NCBI GenBank assembly: GCA_016931225.1
Contig: JAFGFE010000031.1
Span: 1-64,000, forward strand
From: Candidatus Zymogenaceae bacterium
Lineage (GTDB): Bacteria; Desulfobacterota; Zymogenia; Zymogenales; Zymogenaceae
Length of the DNA: 64,000 nt
Direction: 5' to 3'
Part shown: piece after piece, positions 44,432 through 56,707 of the stretch
Position numbering within the stretch: position 1 is the stretch's first letter
Layout: every line of letters starts with the position of its first letter
The notes under the pieces: generated by a model
What the model was told of the DNA's origin: nothing
Seen by the model: the letters and a program-made list of their open reading frames with translations, nothing else
Databases searched by the model: none
Position numbers and translations under genes: made by a program

Positions 44432-45442
44432 ATGCTATCACAAATTCATCCCAACGGGACAATTATCCTGACGAGAAGCCAGATCGTCGACCTCGTCGAT
44501 CTGGACGAATATATCGACACCATTGAAGACGCATTTCGCATGTATGCAGAGGGTAAGGGTGTCGGCATTGGAATGCTTCATGCGGATATCACCGAGGGTA
44601 TCGAGTTCCATATAAAATCCGGAGGCATCACCCTTACAAAGCCCTACTTCGCCCTCAAGGTGAACGGAAGCTCCTTCCAAAATAGAAGGAAATATAATCT
44701 CCCGAACATTATGGGAGCGATCATCCTCTTTGACGGTGACATGATATTCCCCCTGGCCGTTCTTGATTCCATCGAGATCACCATCCGCCGCACAGGGGCG
44801 GCAACGGCCGTTGCGGCGAAATACCTTGCCAAAACGGATTCCCAAACCGTCTGTATCGTGGGATACGGCACCCAGGGAAAAATTCAACTGACGTGCCTTT
44901 CCCGGGTGCTTTCCATTAAAAACGCGTTTGTAACCGGGAGAAACAAAGAGTCAGGAAACGCATTCGCCGACACGATGTCCAGAGAACTCGGCATCCCGGT
45001 TGCCTTTGTCTCCGATATTGATGATGCCGTCTCCCGAAGCGACGTCGTCGTCACGGCGACTCCATCGCGATCACCGCTCTTTGATGCGTCCGCTCCCCGC
45101 CCCGGCACTTTTATCGCCGCCGTGGGGGCGGACAGCCCCGAAAAGAATGAGCTGGATCCCACCCTTCTCGGTCGGGGCGTCGTTATCTGTGATATCACCG
45201 ATCAATGCGCCCGGGTTGGAGAGCTTCACCATGCCATTGGCGCAGGCGTCATAACAACTGACCGGGTACGGGGTGAACTGGGCGACATCATCACCGCCAA
45301 AAAGCCGGGACGGACCAACGATGCCGAAATCATCATCTTCGATTCCACCGGCACCGCCATCCAGGATGCTTCCGCCGCCGCTATCGTCTACGAAAAGGCC
45401 CTGGCATCCGGAAGGGGCTTTCTTGTCAATCTGATGTCATAG
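44432..45442 (+). CDS. ornithine cyclodeaminase / mu-crystallin family protein
   Basis: A 336-residue NAD(P)-dependent protein of the OCD/mu-crystallin family. Landmarks are LTRSQIVDLVDLDEYIDTIEDAFRMYAEG, the substrate-binding ALKVNGSSFQNRRKYNLP, the helix ITIRRTGAATAVAAKYLA and the Rossmann loop CIVGYGTQGKIQL. Members include ornithine cyclodeaminase, alanine dehydrogenase and ketimine reductase, so the substrate is open. Its 3' end overlaps trpA tail to tail by 17 nt. Confidence 0.88.
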   Translation: MLSQIHPNGTIILTRSQIVDLVDLDEYIDTIEDAFRMYAEGKGVGIGMLHADITEGIEFHIKSGGITLTKPYFALKVNGSSFQNRRKYNLPNIMGAIILFDGDMIFPLAVLDSIEITIRRTGAATAVAAKYLAKTDSQTVCIVGYGTQGKIQLTCLSRVLSIKNAFVTGRNKESGNAFADTMSRELGIPVAFVSDIDDAVSRSDVVVTATPSRSPLFDASAPRPGTFIAAVGADSPEKNELDPTLLGRGVVICDITDQCARVGELHHAIGAGVITTDRVRGELGDIITAKKPGRTNDAEIIIFDSTGTAIQDASAAAIVYEKALASGRGFLVNLMS

Positions 45443-46253
45443 CCTGTGGGGCATCATAGATCAACGATGTTTTGAGGGACGAGACAAATCCGCCGACCTC
45501 CTCGAGAAGTCGTTTTTTGTCATCACCTTGTTTTTCAATAATATCAACCAGGGCGCTTCCCACCACCACACCGTCAGCAATGCTCCCCAGTTGCGACGCC
45601 ATTTCCGGACTCGATACGCCGAAGCCGACGGCAACCGGAATCTTCGCCATTTCTCTTACCCGTTCGATGCCGCCTGCGAGGTCTTCCGGCAGTTTGTCCC
45701 TGGCGCCGGTGACCCCGGTCACCGACACATAATATAAAAACCCATTCGCCTCTTCAATGATGCCGGAAATCCGCTCACCATCGCTGACCGGGGAAACCAG
45801 CGTGATGAAATGAATCCCCTCTTTTTCTGTAAATCGGGTGAGCTCGTTCTTCTCCTCAGGCGGCAGGTCCACCACCAACACGCCGTCTACACCCGCCTTC
45901 GCCGCGGCCTTCGCAAATCGCTTCGGCCCATAGGAAAGTATCGGATTGTAATACCCGAACAGCACGATCGGGACGGTGAGCTCGTCCCTGAGTGATGAAA
46001 CCATATCTAGAATCCGTGTAAGAGTGACCCCGTTGTCCAGCGCCCTCTTTGCGGCGCGCTGTATAGTGGGTCCGTCCGCCATCGGATCGGAAAAGGGAAT
46101 CCCCACCTCGATGATGTCGGCGCCCGCGTTCTGAATCGTCTTCAACAGCTCTTCCGTCGTTTCGATATCCGGGTCGCCCGCCGTCAAGTATATCACCAAC
46201 GCCGCTTCGTTCTTTTCCTCAAGGCGTGAAAACACTGCATCAATTCTATTCAT
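45426..46253 (-). CDS. trpA: tryptophan synthase alpha subunit
   Basis: A 275-residue TIM barrel that cleaves indole-3-glycerol phosphate to indole. The catalytic Glu is in [21 protein letters not shown] (near residue 47), the catalytic Asp in [14 protein letters not shown], and the phosphate-binding [11 protein letters not shown] is present. Last gene of the trp operon; overlaps the trpB stop by 8 nt. Confidence 0.96.
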
Positions 46254-47442
46254 AGAGATTCACCTCCATATGTTCCGCAACGGTGTGGATGTCCTTATCG
46301 CCCCTGCCGGATAAGCACACGACAATCTTCTTATCCTTGGACATCGAAGGTGCGATGCGGATAGCCTCCGCCACGGCATGGGCGCTTTCCAGCGCCGGCA
46401 TGATGCCCTCGGTCGTGGTCAGTTGTGTAAAGGCATCGAGGGCGGCCTGATCGTCCACTGCGGTGTACCGAACGCGTTTCGTGTCCTTGAAGAGGCTGTG
46501 CTCCGGACCCACACCCGGGTAGTCGAGGCCTGCGGATATGGAGTGTGTCTCGGTGATTTGCCCGTGATCATCTTGGAGCACATACGACTTTGATCCGTGG
46601 AGAACGCCGACCCTCCCGCGGCACAATGACGCCGCGTGTCTTCCGGTATCCAGGCCGTCACCCGCCGCCTCAACGCCGATCATGTCTACCTCACGGTCGT
46701 CAACGAAGGGATAAAACATCCCCATGGCGTTGGATCCGCCGCCGACACAGGCCACGAGGCAGTCCGGCAGGCGGCCGTTGGTCTTTCTCGTCTGCTCTTT
46801 GGTCTCTTTTCCGATCACCGATTGAAAATCCCGCACCATCATCGGATAGGGGTGGGGGCCAGCAACGGAGCCGATGATGTAAAAGGTATCCCTGACGTTC
46901 GTCACCCAGTCCCGGAGCGCCTCGTTCATGGCGTCTTTCAGGGTCCTCGATCCCGACGAGACCGGGATCACCCGCGCCCCCAAGAGCCGCATGCGAAAAA
47001 CGTTGATGGATTGACGTCGAATGTCCTCGGTGCCCATGTAGACATCACACGTCATGCCGAAGAGCGCCGCCACCGTTGCAGCGGCGACGCCGTGCTGCCC
47101 CGCTCCGGTCTCCGCGATCAGGCGGCCCTTGCCCATGCGCCGGGCCAGTATCGCCTGACCGAGTGTGTTGTTGATCTTGTGGGCTCCGGTATGACACAGG
47201 TCCTCTCGCTTCAGCCAGATTTCCGCCCCCCCCAGTTTTGCCGAGAGTCCCTTCGCCTGATAGAGCGGCGTGGGCCGTCCCACATATTCCTTCAGATAGA
47301 AATCCAGCTCGTGAAACAGCGCCATCTGGTCCCTGTGGTGGATATACGCCTCCTCCAGTTCCACAACCGCGGGCATCAGCGTTTCAGAGACGTATCGTCC
47401 CCCGTACATGCCGTAATGCCCCGCCTTGTCCGGGTATTGCAT
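46246..47442 (-). CDS. trpB: tryptophan synthase beta subunit
   Basis: A 398-residue PLP enzyme condensing indole with serine. The PLP Lys lies in [14 protein letters not shown] near residue 87; [20 protein letters not shown] and [16 protein letters not shown] (phosphate cradle) are typical of TrpB1, the form that pairs with TrpA. The N terminus starts with the [18 protein letters not shown] pattern. Confidence 0.97.
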
Positions 47443-47447
47443 GAGTT

Positions 47448-48098
47448 TTATGCTCCTTGTATCTGTCCGTCAATGATGCGTACGCTTTCTAAAAAGCGTG
47501 CGATTTTTTCATGATCCTTTCTCTCCGGAGAGTCTTCCACTCCCGAGGAGACATCCACCCCGTATGGTCTGACGCGATCGATGAGATCGGCGACGTTTTC
47601 CGGCCTCAATCCTCCCGCCACGATGATCCTCCTCCCCCTCGCATACCTTTTCGCGATATCCCAGTCGAACGCGACGCCGGTCCCCCCCTTTTCACCGGGT
47701 ATGAAAGTATCGAGCAGCACCGTTTGTTCTTCCGGTATCGATTCCAGCTCCCGCTCTCCGGTACCGTCCCCCATCCGTACCACTGGAATAATCGACGAGG
47801 GAGATATTCCAAGTGAGGCACGCTCGGCGTTCATGACCTGAACTGCATTAACCCCGCTCTCTCTATAGACCCGCAGCACATAATCATTTCGCTCGTCGGC
47901 AAACACGCCGATCGTCTGGATGAACGGCGGAAGCACATCGATGATGTCGCGCGCCTGTTTCGGCTCGATGTATCTTCGGCTGGGTCGATGAAACACGAAA
48001 CCGACGGCGTCCGCCCCGTGATCTGCGGAAACCAGCGCGTCGTCTACCCGGGTAATCCCGCATATTTTCACCCGTGTTCGTCCGAAATTGAATGTCAC
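47448..48098 (-). CDS. trpF: phosphoribosylanthranilate isomerase
   Basis: A 216-residue TIM-barrel isomerase. The catalytic Cys is in [14 protein letters not shown] near residue 13 and the catalytic Asp in [33 protein letters not shown] and [20 protein letters not shown] close the barrel. The start is GTG at 48098 in a GTGA overlap with trpC. Confidence 0.95.
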
Positions 48099-48919
48099 TC
48101 TGCACCTCCACGTATGAGTTCAGACAACGCTTTCTCGACATTCCCTGCACGCATGAGGCTCTCACCCACCAGCACCCCCTTCACTCCGGTCCGAACAAGG
48201 CGCCTGACATCGTCGCCCGATGATACGCCGCTGGCGCTCACCACCGTGACGTCCTTCGGCATTTCCGTCATGATGCGTTCTGTTGTGGCAAGATCGGTGA
48301 CGAACGTTTTCAAATCCCTGTTGTTTATGCCGACAAGTGTTGCCCCCGCACCAATCGCACAGTCCCGTTCGGACGCTGTGTGCACCTCGACGAGGCAATC
48401 AAGCCCGATCTCTTCTGCCTGAGACATGAGACTTGTGAGCAGATCGTCATCCAAAATTGCACAGATGAGCAGTACCGCATCGGCTCCCGCCGCCCTCGCC
48501 TCGTAGAGCTGATAGGGATCGAATATAAAATCCTTCCTGAGGACGGGGATCGCAACCCGCCTTCGAGCGCGGATCAGGTGATCAAGACATCCCCCGAAAT
48601 GATCCTCCTCGGTCAATACAGAGAGTGCACTCGCCCCCCCCTCCTGATACGAGACGGCGATCGCCTCCGGGTCGACTGATCCCGCGATGACACCCACAGA
48701 CGGGCTCTTCGCCTTTATCTCCGCGATGACGGCGACGCCGTCCCGATCTCGAATCGCTCGGTGAAATCCCCGTGTGTCCCCTTTATCGTCGATTCTCCCC
48801 ATCAGCTCGTCGATGCCGATCAGGTTCTTCCGTGCCGTTACAGATTCCCGCTTTTTGTCGACGATGGCGTCCAGTATCGTTCCGGACTTCACCGGAATCC
48901 TGCGAGTGGAGGCCTTCAT
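48095..48919 (-). CDS. trpC: indole-3-glycerol phosphate synthase
   Basis: A 274-residue TIM-barrel enzyme forming indole-3-glycerol phosphate. VIAEIKAKSPSVGVI supplies the first catalytic Lys, FGGCLDHL and VLRKDFIFDPYQLYEARAAGADAVLLI the middle, GINNRDLKTF and SASGVSSGDDVRRL the rest. The ATG at 48919 overlaps the trpD TGA; a TTG one codon earlier is also possible given the GGAGG position. Confidence 0.96.
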   Translation of the reverse strand: MKASTRRIPVKSGTILDAIVDKKRESVTARKNLIGIDELMGRIDDKGDTRGFHRAIRDRDGVAVIAEIKAKSPSVGVIAGSVDPEAIAVSYQEGGASALSVLTEEDHFGGCLDHLIRARRRVAIPVLRKDFIFDPYQLYEARAAGADAVLLICAILDDDLLTSLMSQAEEIGLDCLVEVHTASERDCAIGAGATLVGINNRDLKTFVTDLATTERIMTEMPKDVTVVSASGVSSGDDVRRLVRTGVKGVLVGESLMRAGNVEKALSELIRGGAE

Positions 48920-49941
48920 CAATTCGTTCCTCCGGTGTAGGAAATGAGCGATTCGAGCTTCTTGTATGCCCTCCCTGAATCGATGGAGTCGGACGCCTTT
49001 TTAATGCCGTCTTGAAAATCACTCGCGATGCCCGCCACCATGAGGCTTGCGGCGCTGTTGACGACCACCACGTCCCGCTTCGGACCAACCGCGCCATTTA
49101 GGATATCTCGAATGATCGACGCGTTTTCCCGGGCGTCCCCTCCCATCAGGTCTTCTCTCTTCGCCCGTTTTACACCCAGGTCCTCGGTCGTTATCTTCCT
49201 CGTCGATACGACTCCGTCCTCCAGAACGGCGATCTCCGTGGGGCCGAATATGGAGATTTCGTCGAGGCCGCTTCCGTGCACCACCATCGCCCGGACGCTC
49301 CCCAGGGAGTTGAGCACTTCTGCCATCACCGTGCACAGCTTCGGATCATACACCCCCAGAAGCTGCGCCCTCGCCCCCGCCGGATTTGTCAGGGGACCGA
49401 GGATGTTGAATATGGTCCTGATCCCCAGCTCCCTTCTGGGACCGATGGCATGTTTCATGGCGCCGTGAAGAGACGGAGCGAACAGAAAACCGATCCCCAC
49501 CGTCTCGATACACCGGGCCACCCGCTCGGGTACGATATCGACGGCCACGCCGAGGGCCTCCAGTACATCGGCGCTTCCGCACCTGCTCGATATGGATCGA
49601 TTGCCGTGCTTGGCGACGATCGCCCCCGCCCCCGCCGCCACCAGTGCGGTTGCGGTCGAGATATTAAACGTCCCGGACGAATCGCCGCCGGTTCCGCAGG
49701 TGTCCAGTAACAGGTCCCCGTTGCCAAGCTGCAATTCGATGGGCGTCGCCTTTTTCCGCATTACTGAAGCGGCCCCCGCTATCTCGTCTACGGTTTCCCC
49801 CTTCATTCTCAGCCCGGTGATGAAACCACCGATCTGAGACGGCGTCGCCTCACCGCTCATGATGACGTCCATTGCCCCTTCCATTTCCTGACGGGTCAGG
49901 TGACGTCCCTCGACCACCTTTGCCAATGCCGTCTGTAACAT
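48919..49941 (-). CDS. trpD: anthranilate phosphoribosyltransferase
   Basis: A 340-residue enzyme transferring phosphoribose from PRPP to anthranilate. The PRPP motif DTCGTGGDSSGTFNISTATALVAAGAG, then KHGNRSISSRCGSADVLEALG, and HGAMKHAIGPRRELGIRTIFNILGPLTNPA are complete. The ATG at 49941 has a GGAGG 5 nt upstream. The start lies 92 nt inside the trpG reading frame, a longer overlap than elsewhere in the operon. Confidence 0.95.
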   Translation of the reverse strand: MLQTALAKVVEGRHLTRQEMEGAMDVIMSGEATPSQIGGFITGLRMKGETVDEIAGAASVMRKKATPIELQLGNGDLLLDTCGTGGDSSGTFNISTATALVAAGAGAIVAKHGNRSISSRCGSADVLEALGVAVDIVPERVARCIETVGIGFLFAPSLHGAMKHAIGPRRELGIRTIFNILGPLTNPAGARAQLLGVYDPKLCTVMAEVLNSLGSVRAMVVHGSGLDEISIFGPTEIAVLEDGVVSTRKITTEDLGVKRAKREDLMGGDARENASIIRDILNGAVGPKRDVVVVNSAASLMVAGIASDFQDGIKKASDSIDSGRAYKKLESLISYTGGTN

Positions 49942-50512
49942 GATTCCCTCCAATTTCTATAAAATTCTCCAGCATTTTTTTACCGCAGTCGGTCAGTATC
50001 GATTCGGGATGAAACTGTATGCCGTAAATCGCGTGCTCGCGATGCCGCACACCCATGATCTCACCCCGATCCGTCCAGGCGATTTTCACAAGCTCTTCAG
50101 GAAAGGTATCCGGATCGATGACCAGCGAATGATACCGGATCGCCCGAAACGGATTTGAAATCTCCATGAACAGGTCGTCGCTGTCATGAAATACCATCGA
50201 TTCTTTCCCGTGCATAACCCGGGGAGCGTGGACGATGTCTCCTCCGAACGCCTCGCCGACTGCCTGGTGGCCCAGGCAGACACCCAGGACCGGGACGACG
50301 CCAGCGGACCTTTTTATCAGCTCGACTGATATCCCGGCGGATGACGGGGAGCCGGGTCCCGGTGAAATGACGATATAGTCGGGATTCTTATCCAGGCACT
50401 CCTCGATGGTGATCCGATCGTTTCTGTGAACGACCAGCTCGTGCCCCATCTCTCCCAGGTACTGCACCAGGTTGTAGGTAAACGAATCGTAGTTGTCTAT
50501 CACGAGTATCAT
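49850..50512 (-). CDS. trpG: anthranilate synthase glutamine amidotransferase subunit
   Basis: A 220-residue class I glutamine amidotransferase that feeds ammonia to TrpE. The start MILVIDNYDSFTYNLVQYL, oxyanion loop SPGPGSP, nucleophile Cys in GVCLGHQAVGEAFGG and the His-Glu pair in IQFHPESILT are all present. The usual family end is near ENFIEI; here about 30 Gly/Arg/His-rich residues follow, read across the trpD start. Confidence 0.95.
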   Translation of the reverse strand: MILVIDNYDSFTYNLVQYLGEMGHELVVHRNDRITIEECLDKNPDYIVISPGPGSPSSAGISVELIKRSAGVVPVLGVCLGHQAVGEAFGGDIVHAPRVMHGKESMVFHDSDDLFMEISNPFRAIRYHSLVIDPDTFPEELVKIAWTDRGEIMGVRHREHAIYGIQFHPESILTDCGKKMLENFIEIGGNHVTDGIGKGGRGTSPDPSGNGRGNGRHHER

Positions 50513-50522
50513 TGCGCACCTC

Positions 50523-52010
50523 CTATACCGGCCGCATATTTTTTCTGACCATTTCCACCGCCCGGAGCATGCCGCCCGCCTTGTGACGTGTCTCGTAGTA
50601 TTCCTTTTCCGGAACCGAATCGGAGACGATGCCCGCGCCCGCCTGTATGAATACCCTATTCTTTGTAATCAGCATCGTCCTGATGGTGATGCACATGTCC
50701 ATGTTCCCCGAAAAGCTGAAATATCCCACGCATCCGCCGTATGTCCCCCTGCGGCACGGCTCCAGATCGTCGATGATCTCCATCGCCCTGATCTTCGGTG
50801 CCCCGGTGAGGGTCCCGGCGGGAAACGCCGCCCTGATGACGTCGAAAGACGTCTTTCCTGGAAGGAGCCTTCCCTCGATGTCCGATACGATGTGGATCAC
50901 ATGGGAGTATTTCTCGATACGCATGAGGTTCGTGACGTCAATACTGCCGTATTCCGAGACCCGGCCGAGATCGTTCCGTCCCAGGTCAACCAGCATGATG
51001 TGCTCCGCCCGCTCCTTCTCGTCAGAAAGCAAATCCCTGGAAAGCTCGTCGTCCTCTTCATCGCTGTTTCCCCTGGGCCGAGTGCCGGCGATGGGCCTGA
51101 GCTCCACCGTATCGTCCTCCTTCCTTACCAGCACTTCCGGGGACGAACCCGCCAGGATGACGTCGTCGAATTTGAGGTAGAACATGTACGGAGAGGGATT
51201 GATTGATCTCAGGGCGCGATACAGATTGAAGGGATCGCTTTTCAGCTCCATCTCAAACCGCTGGGAGAGAACGACCTGGATGACATCGCCGTCGATGATA
51301 TGTTTTTTCGCCCGATCTACAGCATTCATGTAATCGGCCCTGCTCATATTCGATTCGACGAACAGGTGCTCCCCCTCCTCCGTCTCGAGGTGATCGATCG
51401 ACAAAGGTTCTCGCAGTTTGTGAATCGTCCTCGTGATGCGATTGGCGGCGTCCATATATGCCGCTTCCATATCGACGCCGTCATCTAAAAAAACGTTCGC
51501 CACCACCTTCAGGGTATGCTTGACGTTATCGAAGATCACAATGGTATCGGTGATGATGAAGTAGGCGTCGTATACATTCAGGTCGTCCTGAGCGTTGTCC
51601 GGGATGTCCTCGATGAACCTGACCGTATCGTAGCCGAAATACCCGACGGCACCTCCCCAGAATCGGGGAAGCCCGTTGACCGCGACCGGTTTGTACCGAT
51701 CCATGAGATTCTTGAGCTGCCCGAAGGGATCAGTGTGCTTTTCCGCATAGAGGAGCTCGCCGTCTTTCACCACATCCACCCTCGTCCCCCTCACGCGGAA
51801 AATGATCGACGGATCAGCGCCCAAAAAACTGTATCGCCCCCACTTTTCGCCCCCCTCGACGCTCTCCAGCAGAAAGGCGTGGGACGAACCGTTCAATTTT
51901 TTCAAGGCCGAAACCGGTGTCTCGAGATCGGCCAGTATCTCCTGGTAGATCGGTATGAGATTTCCCTCTGTGGTGAGCTTTTTGAACTCTTCGAAGTTGG
52001 GTGTTATCAT
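50523..52010 (-). CDS. trpE: anthranilate synthase component I
   Basis: A 495-residue chorismate-utilising enzyme. N-terminal domain contains the LLESVEGGEKWGRYSFLGADPS segment associated with Trp feedback binding; the catalytic part has RPIAGTRPRGNSDEEDDELSRDLLSDEKERAEHIMLVDLGRNDLGRV and GTLTGAPKIRAMEII. A GGGGGAG site precedes the ATG. Expression is expected to be governed by the attenuator immediately upstream. Confidence 0.97.
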   Translation of the reverse strand: MITPNFEEFKKLTTEGNLIPIYQEILADLETPVSALKKLNGSSHAFLLESVEGGEKWGRYSFLGADPSIIFRVRGTRVDVVKDGELLYAEKHTDPFGQLKNLMDRYKPVAVNGLPRFWGGAVGYFGYDTVRFIEDIPDNAQDDLNVYDAYFIITDTIVIFDNVKHTLKVVANVFLDDGVDMEAAYMDAANRITRTIHKLREPLSIDHLETEEGEHLFVESNMSRADYMNAVDRAKKHIIDGDVIQVVLSQRFEMELKSDPFNLYRALRSINPSPYMFYLKFDDVILAGSSPEVLVRKEDDTVELRPIAGTRPRGNSDEEDDELSRDLLSDEKERAEHIMLVDLGRNDLGRVSEYGSIDVTNLMRIEKYSHVIHIVSDIEGRLLPGKTSFDVIRAAFPAGTLTGAPKIRAMEIIDDLEPCRRGTYGGCVGYFSFSGNMDMCITIRTMLITKNRVFIQAGAGIVSDSVPEKEYYETRHKAGGMLRAVEMVRKNMRPV

Positions 52011-52026: not shown

Positions 52027-52054
52027 AAAAAAGGCCGTGGATAGTCTCCACGGC
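52027..52054 (-). terminator. trp attenuator terminator 2
   Basis: On the minus strand GCCGTGGA (52054-52047), loop GACTA, TCCACGGC (52041-52034), then C and six T (52032-52027). Ends only 16 nt before the trpE ATG, a typical attenuator position. Confidence 0.85.
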
Positions 52055-52070
52055 ATGTACGACTCGGTCG

Positions 52071-52106
52071 AAAAAAAAGCCGTGGACACTGAGCTTCGTC
52101 CACGGC
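52071..52106 (-). terminator. trp attenuator terminator 1
   Basis: On the minus strand GCCGTGGAC (52106-52098), a 10-nt loop, GTCCACGGC (52087-52079), then eight T (52078-52071). A textbook Rho-independent terminator inside the trp leader. Confidence 0.88.
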
Positions 52107-52149
52107 CTTTTCGGCTGAATATGTTTTAATGGATCACCGGACGGACGAA
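52079..52149 (-). promoter_or_regulatory. trp leader antiterminator segment
   Basis: TTCGTCC (52149-52143), inside the end of the leader peptide frame, is fully complementary to GGACGAA (52101-52095), which spans the 3' half of the first arm and the loop of terminator 1. Two G-T pairs can extend it. This pairing excludes terminator 1. The released GTCCACGGC (52087-52079) can then pair with GCCGTGGA of terminator 2 and disarm it. Confidence 0.6.
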
Positions 52150-52214
52150 TCTCCTATGTAGATACGCCACGCCCAATTGAAATAATTGCTTTTTCGGTTA
52201 TACATCATCATCAT
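52134..52214 (-). CDS. trpL: trp operon leader peptide
   Basis: A 26-codon open frame between the trp promoter and the terminators. It starts with four consecutive ATG codons (52214-52203), any of which could initiate, and contains Trp-Ala-Trp (codons at 52175 and 52169) followed by RIYIGDSSVR and TGA. Two Trp codons one residue apart are the hallmark of trpL peptides. The ribosome binding site is weak (GAGTGA). When the ribosome stalls at the Trp codons the segment at 52149-52143 stays free; at the stop codon the ribosome covers it. Confidence 0.82.
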   Translation of the reverse strand: MMMMYNRKSNYFNWAWRIYIGDSSVR

Positions 52215-52241
52215 TACCGTTCACTCACGTTGGTGCAGGTT

Positions 52242-52269
52242 ATTATACGTTTTCACACATTCGTGTCAA
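52242..52269 (-). promoter_or_regulatory. trp operon promoter, full consensus
   Basis: On the minus strand TTGACA (52269-52264) and TATAAT (52247-52242), both perfect, with 16-bp spacing. The start site should be near 52235, about 20 nt before the leader peptide and 225 nt before trpE. No obvious TrpR-type palindrome was recognised. Confidence 0.8.
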
Positions 52270-54845: not shown

Positions 54846-55346
54846 TTACATCTTATACTTGCCGAAATCATCCGGGTCAAGCTTTTCCAATACCTCCGCC
54901 CATTTTTTCTTCGCTTCTTCACTGTGCAGGTCTTCCGGCTTTGTTAGGTCGATTTTTCTCGACCGCTCGATAACCGACTCCTCCATGTAGATTTTCGCCT
55001 GAGTCCTCAGCGCTATGGCAATGGCGTCACTGGGGCGAGAATCAATTTCGTAGTTGCGTCCGTCGGCGACCATGTAGATCGTGGCATAATAGGTGTTGTC
55101 CTTGAGGTCATCCACCACGATTCTCTCTATGACGATATTCATGGTTTCCATGATATTTTTCAAGAGATCGTGGGTCATGGGGCGGGAAAATTCGATTTCC
55201 TCGAGCACCGTAGCGATGGCGCTGGCCTCCAGAAGACCTATCCAGATTGGAACGGAGTTTTTGCCCTCAACTTCCTTGAGGATGACAATCGGTACACTGG
55301 ACAACGGATCGATGGCCAGACCGCTAATCTCCATTTCCTTGGCCAT
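54846..55346 (-). CDS. bifunctional nuclease (BFN/DUF151) domain protein
   Basis: A 166-residue soluble protein with the BFN domain: LAIDPLSSVPIVILKEVEGKNSVPIWIGLLEASAIATVLEEIEFSRPMTHDLL, and IDSRPSDAIAIALRTQAKIYM. Plant members have RNase and DNase activity; the bacterial role is uncertain. The ATG shares one base with the miaB stop (TAATG), an arrangement that suggests coupled translation. Confidence 0.88.
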   Translation of the reverse strand: MAKEMEISGLAIDPLSSVPIVILKEVEGKNSVPIWIGLLEASAIATVLEEIEFSRPMTHDLLKNIMETMNIVIERIVVDDLKDNTYYATIYMVADGRNYEIDSRPSDAIAIALRTQAKIYMEESVIERSRKIDLTKPEDLHSEEAKKKWAEVLEKLDPDDFGKYKM

Positions 55347-56707
55347 TACATGCTCCTTATCGAGTAATTGTGTATCGCTTCTCCCAAAAGGGAATTGTTG
55401 CGCGCTTCGATGATTTTAACCGGTATGAGAGAGCCGATATCTTCATACCGTCCGGTGAAGTTGACCACCTTGTTATGGACGGACCTCCCGGTGATGACAT
55501 CCGGATCCCTACGGCTCGTTCCCGTGGCAAGCACCTCTTTTATCGTATTTACGTGGAGCCTGTTGGTACAAAGCGTGTGTTCTTTTTGAAGTTCCTGGAG
55601 AATGGTGAGTCTCCGTGATTTTTCTTCATCATCGACGGTGTCTTTCAGGGTTGATGCCTTTGTGAGCGGCCTGGAGGAGTATTTGAACGAATAGGCGCCG
55701 TCGAACCTCACCCGCTCCATGACATAGAGCGTTTCTTCAAAATCTGTGCTCGTTTCTCCGGGAAAACCAACGATAATATCCGTAGTTACGGCAAGATCGC
55801 TCCGCACACTTCTGAGGGCATCAATTTTCTCAAGATACTCCTCTTTTGAATACTTTCTGTTCATTGCCGCAAGCACCCGGGAAGAACCGGATTGGAGCGG
55901 AAGATGGATATGAGAACAGAGCGCCGGTATCGTTCGATATGCATCCACCAGACGGTCGGACAGGTCCTTTGGATGTGACGTTGTAAAACGAAGGCGCCTG
56001 ACGCCCGGTACATCGGCTACATGCTCGAGTAGCTCGGGGAAATCCATCCCCCGCTTTGGATCCCGATAGGAATTGACATTCTGTCCCAGCAGCGTGATCT
56101 CGACGGTACCACCCGCTCCCAGTTCCTCGACATCCCTGATGATCTCGCCCGCGTTTCTGGACGATTCCCTCCCCCGCACAAACGGCACAATACAATAGGA
56201 GCAAAAATTATTGCATCCCTGGGTGATGGTCACAAACGCGCTGATCAACCCCCTCCTTCTTGGAAAGGGATCGATACGGCATTCATCCGAAAAATCGTCG
56301 GCGATAATAGGTCCGTGCCCCTTTCGGATTTGCGCGACGATGTTCGATATCTCCCCCACGTGATGGGTTCCGACAACCGCATCGACGATCGGAAACCGCT
56401 CGATTATCACGGCCGCATTTTGCTGTGCCACACATCCGGCCACAATAATAATCAGATCGGGGTGCTTCTCCTTGAGATCACGATATCTTCCGATTTCGCT
56501 GTATGTTTTCTCCTCGGGCTTTTCCCGAACGCTGCAAGTATTGATGATGATAATCTTGGCATCCTCGGCGCTCTCTACGGATTCGTACCCGTCGGTTAAG
56601 AGAATTCCCTCCATGCGCTCGGAATCGTATTCATTCATCTGACACCCGAAAGTTCTGATGAACAGTCCCGAGGGAGTGTCAGGGTGTGGTGAAGAAAACC
56701 GCGTCAT
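55346..56707 (-). CDS. miaB: tRNA-2-methylthio-N6-dimethylallyladenosine synthase MiaB
   Basis: A 453-residue radical SAM methylthiotransferase acting on i6A37 in tRNA. FIRTFGCQMNEYDSERM starts the UPF0004 domain, with further Cys in NTCSVREKPEEK and AGCVAQQ; the radical SAM motif is CNNFCSYC near residue 170; a TRAM domain ends the protein. TFGCQMN and NTCSVRE distinguish it from the MtaB at 16396, so both tRNA methylthiolases occur in this window. Confidence 0.95.
   Translation of the reverse strand: MTRFSSPHPDTPSGLFIRTFGCQMNEYDSERMEGILLTDGYESVESAEDAKIIIINTCSVREKPEEKTYSEIGRYRDLKEKHPDLIIIVAGCVAQQNAAVIIERFPIVDAVVGTHHVGEISNIVAQIRKGHGPIIADDFSDECRIDPFPRRRGLISAFVTITQGCNNFCSYCIVPFVRGRESSRNAGEIIRDVEELGAGGTVEITLLGQNVNSYRDPKRGMDFPELLEHVADVPGVRRLRFTTSHPKDLSDRLVDAYRTIPALCSHIHLPLQSGSSRVLAAMNRKYSKEEYLEKIDALRSVRSDLAVTTDIIVGFPGETSTDFEETLYVMERVRFDGAYSFKYSSRPLTKASTLKDTVDDEEKSRRLTILQELQKEHTLCTNRLHVNTIKEVLATGTSRRDPDVITGRSVHNKVVNFTGRYEDIGSLIPVKIIEARNNSLLGEAIHNYSIRSM

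Follow-up and report, generated by a model that had tools for sequence, protein, structure and literature searches.

The trp operon of the window (the whole 64,000-nucleotide stretch of DNA that was analysed) lies on its minus strand, where trpE heads a complete trpEGDCFBA gene set. The region upstream of trpE holds a sigma-70-type promoter, a short leader reading frame with Trp codons and two successive intrinsic terminators, T1 and T2 (Table 1). A sequence-only reading had described these elements as a consensus promoter, a 26-codon Trp-Ala-Trp leader and two terminators (T8 and T6) made of the same words, and all of them are present on the minus strand where it had placed them. The two promoter hexamers together match the consensus at 12/12 positions and are separated by a spacer of 16 nt. 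The leader ORF opens with four consecutive ATGs, so that its exact start codon is ambiguous, and no strong or clear Shine-Dalgarno sequence was seen before the start. The leader RNA folds more stably than its dinucleotide shuffles (z = -3.0).

Table 1. Features of the trp leader and operon in the window (segments 1 to 6 are the pairing arms of the leader RNA).
Feature	Position	Strand	Details
-35 hexamer	52264..52269	(-)	TTGACA, consensus
-10 hexamer	52242..52247	(-)	TATAAT, consensus
Leader peptide ORF	52134..52214	(-)	26 codons + stop, with Trp-Ala-Trp, MMMMYNRKSNYFNWAWRIYIGDSSVR; W-rich leader at the same position in both same-family relatives
Segment 1	52167..52175	(-)	control codons TGG GCG TGG
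Predicted 1:2 pause hairpin	52139..52174	(-)	Trp codons with the end of the leader frame; RNA fold without ribosome
Segment 2	52137..52154	(-)	core TTCGTCC (52149-52143), within the end of the leader frame
Segment 3	52095..52107	(-)	T1 5' arm with the antiterminator partner GGACGAA (52101-52095)
Terminator 1 (3:4)	52071..52106	(-)	GCCGTGGAC (52106-52098) / GTCCACGGC (52087-52079), T8 tail 52078-52071
Segment 4	52079..52087	(-)	GTCCACGGC, T1 3' arm, proposed partner of segment 5
Segment 5	52047..52054	(-)	GCCGTGGA, T2 5' arm
Terminator 2 (5:6)	52027..52054	(-)	8-bp stem GCCGTGGA (52054-52047) / TCCACGGC (52041-52034), 5-nt loop, C, T6
trpE	50523..52010	(-)	anthranilate synthase component I, first gene of the operon; NCBIfam TIGR00564, 575 bits, above cut-off
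trpG, trpD, trpC, trpF, trpB, trpA	45426..50512	(-)	order as listed

Judged by sequence and predicted structure, the locus is a real, conserved attenuator upstream of trpE: an ORF with Trp codons lies 5' of the first gene, intrinsic terminators stand between this ORF and trpE, and there is a mutually exclusive antiterminator whose 5' strand is gated by the ribosome, as seen in mask folding and in the covariation of the 2:3 pairing. Stalling of a ribosome on either Trp codon would expose segment 2, whereas a ribosome that has reached the stop codon would cover it. The core of segment 2 pairs fully with its partner in segment 3, as had been pointed out from the sequence, and the full antiterminator proves even longer than these 7 pairs, comprising about 15 pairs with gaps (duplex -20.8 kcal/mol). 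Furthermore, 2:3 covaries strongly between families, the duplex scoring -22.0 within the own family versus -14.7 between families, and none of the 100,000 permutations was as good.

Folding of the RNA under ribosome masks agreed with the earlier reading at T1 and for RNA extending through segment 5. In the stalled model (Trp16 in the A site, 12 nt downstream covered, free RNA from 52154), RNA that ends with segment 3 adopts 2:3 (-13.5), and once segment 5 is complete the minimum becomes 2:3 + 4:5; a ribosome placed on the stop codon gives T1 instead. Across 70 genomes (described below), the stalled model leads to 2:3 + 4:5 in 53 and the stop-codon model to T1 in 62, in two of which the modelled ribosome already reaches T1, while shuffling of segment 5 removes T1 in only about 17% on average.

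The full-length RNA behaves differently, since the repetition of the words enables arm 3 to pair with arm 6 around 4:5, and this nested structure (3:6 around 4:5, 52107-52027 on the minus strand) is the lowest-energy fold in both ribosome states. As the minimum is the same regardless of the ribosome, the switch must be kinetic, and this predicted equilibrium fold does not decide what happens while the polymerase passes T2. The competing structures are close in energy: in this genome 4:5 (-18.0) and 5:6 (-16.9 to -17.7) are about equal, across genomes the median difference is 1.8 kcal/mol in favour of 4:5, and 2:3 and 3:4 are likewise close. As in classical attenuation, the outcome would thus be set by whichever structure is the first to form. 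The change from 4:5 to 5:6 has to overcome a modest barrier (9.3 kcal/mol here, median 10.2), and under common rate assumptions 4:5 would, by our own estimate, hold for about 1 second.

A lack of conservation of the leader frame or its pairings in relatives had been named as a refutation, and this refutation fails. The collection includes three more members of the window's family; the two of them with trpE both carry a Trp-rich leader and two serial terminators, and these two and 12 further families keep the leader, the antiterminator, both terminators and the reuse of arms. The sample of relatives consisted of six further families that were searched and single members of others. In total, a Trp leader followed by two consecutive hairpins was parsed in 70 distinct genomes from 13 families of the phylum, this being the number after re-parsing (the first parse gave 83 tandem rows, which included mis-parsed pause hairpins). 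In the parsed layout, the first hairpin has a long loop that holds segment 3, and the second, with a short loop, follows 12-33 bases on, often about 25 bases 5' of trpE. The words of the two hairpins change together: one relative (G001) has GCCGCGGG in both and another (G103) has CCGCAGGC in both, while in a third (G002) the T2 arm is GTTGTGGA and its two changes become G-U pairs with the T1 3' arm.

The number of terminators varies within the phylum. Automated parsing of 90 trpE upstream regions yielded 45 trpE genes preceded by a Trp-leader ORF and one or more terminators; 26 of these genes have two terminators and 19 have one (for example L018, L022 and L031, which carry T1 only); a few parse errors are likely in both groups. 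In addition, five genomes from four families show no run of four T behind the first hairpin, while the tract of the second is good, namely L200 (G135) in f38, L156 (G143) in f13, L243 (G246) and L237 (G261) in f7 and L250 (G263) in f51. Judged by sequence, the second hairpin must be the only good terminator in these five, so that control has to pass to T2 and the leader would reach it only via a relay, in a his-like manner. Leaders with T1 only, leaders with T1 and T2, and leaders with a U-tract-less first hairpin followed by T2 thus appear to link trp-type with his-type attenuators in a series.

T1 and T2 have GCCGTGGA and its complement in common. A pattern search for GCCGTGG N3-16 CCACGGC found 4 occurrences in the 3.73 Mb assembly, two of which are T1 and T2 themselves, with the two hairpin copies 24 bases apart. 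Pairing of the T1 3' arm with the T2 5' arm reaches -20.5 kcal/mol, versus a mean of -7.6 kcal/mol for the 235 terminator-like hairpins compared from about 0.38 Mb of the same genome, some of which are repeat copies of the same loci. As the word is rare genome-wide and the arm pairing lies far above this background, it is not the usual terminator stem of the genome, and a chance or genome-wide terminator word was rejected as an explanation.

The T1 stem word GCCGTGG or a near variant of it is also kept across the trpE leaders of different families, and occurs in L103 and L098 as well. Such sequence conservation is unusual for a terminator stem and is probably forced by Trp-codon pairing through segment 2. 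The conserved GUGG/CCAC words are likely explained by the double task of segment 2, which must pair both with the Trp codons (UGGUGG) and with segment 3: every odd segment would then look like the Trp codons and every even one like the complement of these, all along the chain to T2.

The pairing that would carry the signal from the first hairpin to the second is 4:5. As far as sequences can tell, the 4:5 complementarity is real and conserved, and it is higher within than between lineages: duplexes of the own lineage score -17.6 versus -14.7 between families, a difference reached in 5 of 100,000 permutations over 13 families, and this stronger p-value is qualified by a parsing rule that was changed after a weaker one was known. 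The weaker value (p = 0.10) came from arms cut to the stem only, several of which were misparsed, those of f7 being without their last pairs; for the later tests the hairpins were re-parsed by one rule, and 3 flanking bases per side were included, so that the flanks contain A/T tracts, equally in the between-family control. Within the diverse family f49 the match is also significant (p = 0.005), while within f30 and within f7 it was no better than permuted. In f51 and f7, pairing between segments 4 and 5 continues outside the common word. A wobble test, in which differences between arms 3 and 5 were scored for continued pairing with segment 4, was neutral (12 of 41 kept, 10.2 expected). Since the 3' arm of T1 is complementary to its own 5' arm, any copied hairpin would cross-pair likewise, and the lineage-specific match could reflect a copying event between the two hairpins instead of selection.

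Taken together with the folds, these features make a ribosome-mediated attenuator probable in which a six-segment RNA chain puts two intrinsic terminators under one Trp-sensing leader peptide. The order of events that we infer for the cell is as follows. When Trp is plentiful, a ribosome at the leader stop would cover segment 2, allowing 3:4 (T1) to form and transcription to end; behind polymerases that slip past T1, 5:6 (T2) would also form, segment 4 being held in T1. When Trp is scarce, a ribosome would stall on Trp-Ala-Trp and leave segment 2 free, 2:3 would form before segment 4 is made and T1 would fail; the unpaired segment 4 may then capture segment 5 before segment 6 is made, whereupon T2 would fail as well and trpEGDCFBA would be transcribed. 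It had been suggested from the sequence that a stalled ribosome could disarm both terminators. This interpretation is largely supported: it stands for T1 in the folds, while the disarming of T2 by 4:5 in the cell goes beyond them, given the near-equal energies of 4:5 and 5:6, the barrier of 9.3 kcal/mol and the neutral wobble test; the relay to T2 is nevertheless likely.

A different account would have T1 alone regulated by the leader, with T2 as a passive terminator (weak, constitutive or back-up) whose arms are left over from a duplication of T1 and which is leaky to polymerases that have escaped T1. The likeness of arms 3 and 5 is what a copy would give, and the neutral wobble test, the missing 4:5 covariation within f30 and f7 and the sufficiency of one terminator in 19 of the 45 Trp-leader trpE genes all agree with it. 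Nevertheless, the loops and spacers of the two hairpins differ, segments 4 and 5 match within lineages across 13 families, and the pairing in f51 and f7 exceeds what a common word provides. Furthermore, T2 is well formed in most genomes, in its stem as in its U-tract, and an unregulated T2 would there reduce induced expression, and the genomes with a U-tract-less first hairpin must regulate through T2. A passive T2 is regarded as fairly unlikely.

Conversely, the first hairpin might be mainly a relay, as in a his-type attenuator, with T2 as the sole terminator that matters in vivo. The six-segment chain is like that of the his leader, and the degraded first-hairpin tails of G135, G143, G246, G261 and G263 point the same way; T1 of the window, however, has a longer stem and a T8 tail and is at least as good a terminator as T2, which makes this version very improbable here. 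It is hardly conceivable that the inverted repeats act as a riboswitch, bind a protein or terminate the upstream gene and are no attenuator at all. A SAM-alpha riboswitch match that overlaps the leader frame was rejected, as it scored 19.8 bits against a cut-off of 36, and neither Rfam Trp_leader nor any other Rfam leader matched at gathering score in the window region or in 14 relatives, whereas upstream of both hairpins there is a Trp-rich ORF, conserved along with the antiterminator, and a consensus promoter.

The serial attenuator with one sensor, as preferred here, can be compared with several known systems. The E. coli trp leader (trpL) is alike in its Trp-codon leader peptide before trpE, 1:2 pause hairpin, 2:3 antiterminator and 3:4 terminator, but it has one terminator and TrpR, whereas a second terminator from the same words and no TrpR are found here. 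Its attenuator has a modelled basal read-through of 10-15%, TrpR doing the rest, while for his, attenuation is the sole control and the extra hairpin has been proposed to lower basal read-through (PMC1183508). The his leader of Salmonella and E. coli likewise has an extended chain of alternative pairings, its additional hairpin lying between the pause hairpin and the terminator; there, however, the last hairpin is the only terminator, whereas in the window the middle hairpin, T1 with its T8, is one too, and the his-like arrangement is seen in the sequences of few relatives, the five listed above.

The serial layout had been thought unusual, a view that does not hold: it is common in the phylum, as the 26 of 45 leaders indicate, and in erm(K) of Bacillus one leader peptide is likewise followed by two adjacent Rho-independent terminators (PMC4335068). 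The likeness to erm(K) is one of layout, and that system differs in that a macrolide-stalled ribosome is sensed, a resistance gene is controlled and the organism belongs to another phylum. The rimP-leader of Gammaproteobacteria has tandem terminators with a potential antiterminator (PMC2965389), but no amino-acid leader peptide, and inverse motifs on its two terminators. Two attenuators in series are also known from mgtCBR (PMC3641672) and from mef/msrD, where a double lock that would prevent basal msrD expression has been proposed (PMC10314930); in both, two separate leader ORFs do the sensing, whereas here one sensor serves both terminators. For the trp or amino-acid leaders of this phylum, no tandem terminators were found in the open literature, subscription papers being outside the scope of the search.

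The likely benefit of T2 is a lower off-state leak in organisms that have no Trp repressor. In the phylum, 4 of 148 genomes have TrpR (PF01371) above the cut-off; the window's family had none in the same search. A terminator in series would cut the intrinsic read-through of T1; wrong 2:3 decisions would stay uncorrected, because they disarm both terminators. A second terminator on the same sensor would in this way multiply repression without a second sensor and without loss of induction, and the layout, which recurs in at least 13 families of the phylum, would seem to be a widespread variant of the classical trp attenuator with tighter control. Whether it amounts to a phylum-wide class of serial attenuators (one leader peptide, two terminators and a relay), with a natural series from trp-type to his-type that shows how an attenuation-only operon evolves a tighter off state, is to our mind an evenly balanced proposition. 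The occurrence of one-terminator, two-terminator and relay forms side by side would make the evolution between trp-type and his-type experimentally testable, and the two-terminator relay would offer a simple design for low-leak synthetic RNA switches.

Two further observations concern the regulatory surroundings of trp genes. Among the few genomes of the phylum that encode a TrpR-family protein, L149 (G088) has one terminator upstream of trpE, and no Trp-rich leader was parsed there. In the window, the trp operon is preceded at a distance of a few genes by miaB, encoding the tRNA ms2i6A37 methylthiotransferase (55346-56707, minus strand). The same A37 modification pathway (miaA, formerly trpX) influences trp attenuation in E. 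coli, and the proximity of miaB to the trp operon may or may not be a coincidence.
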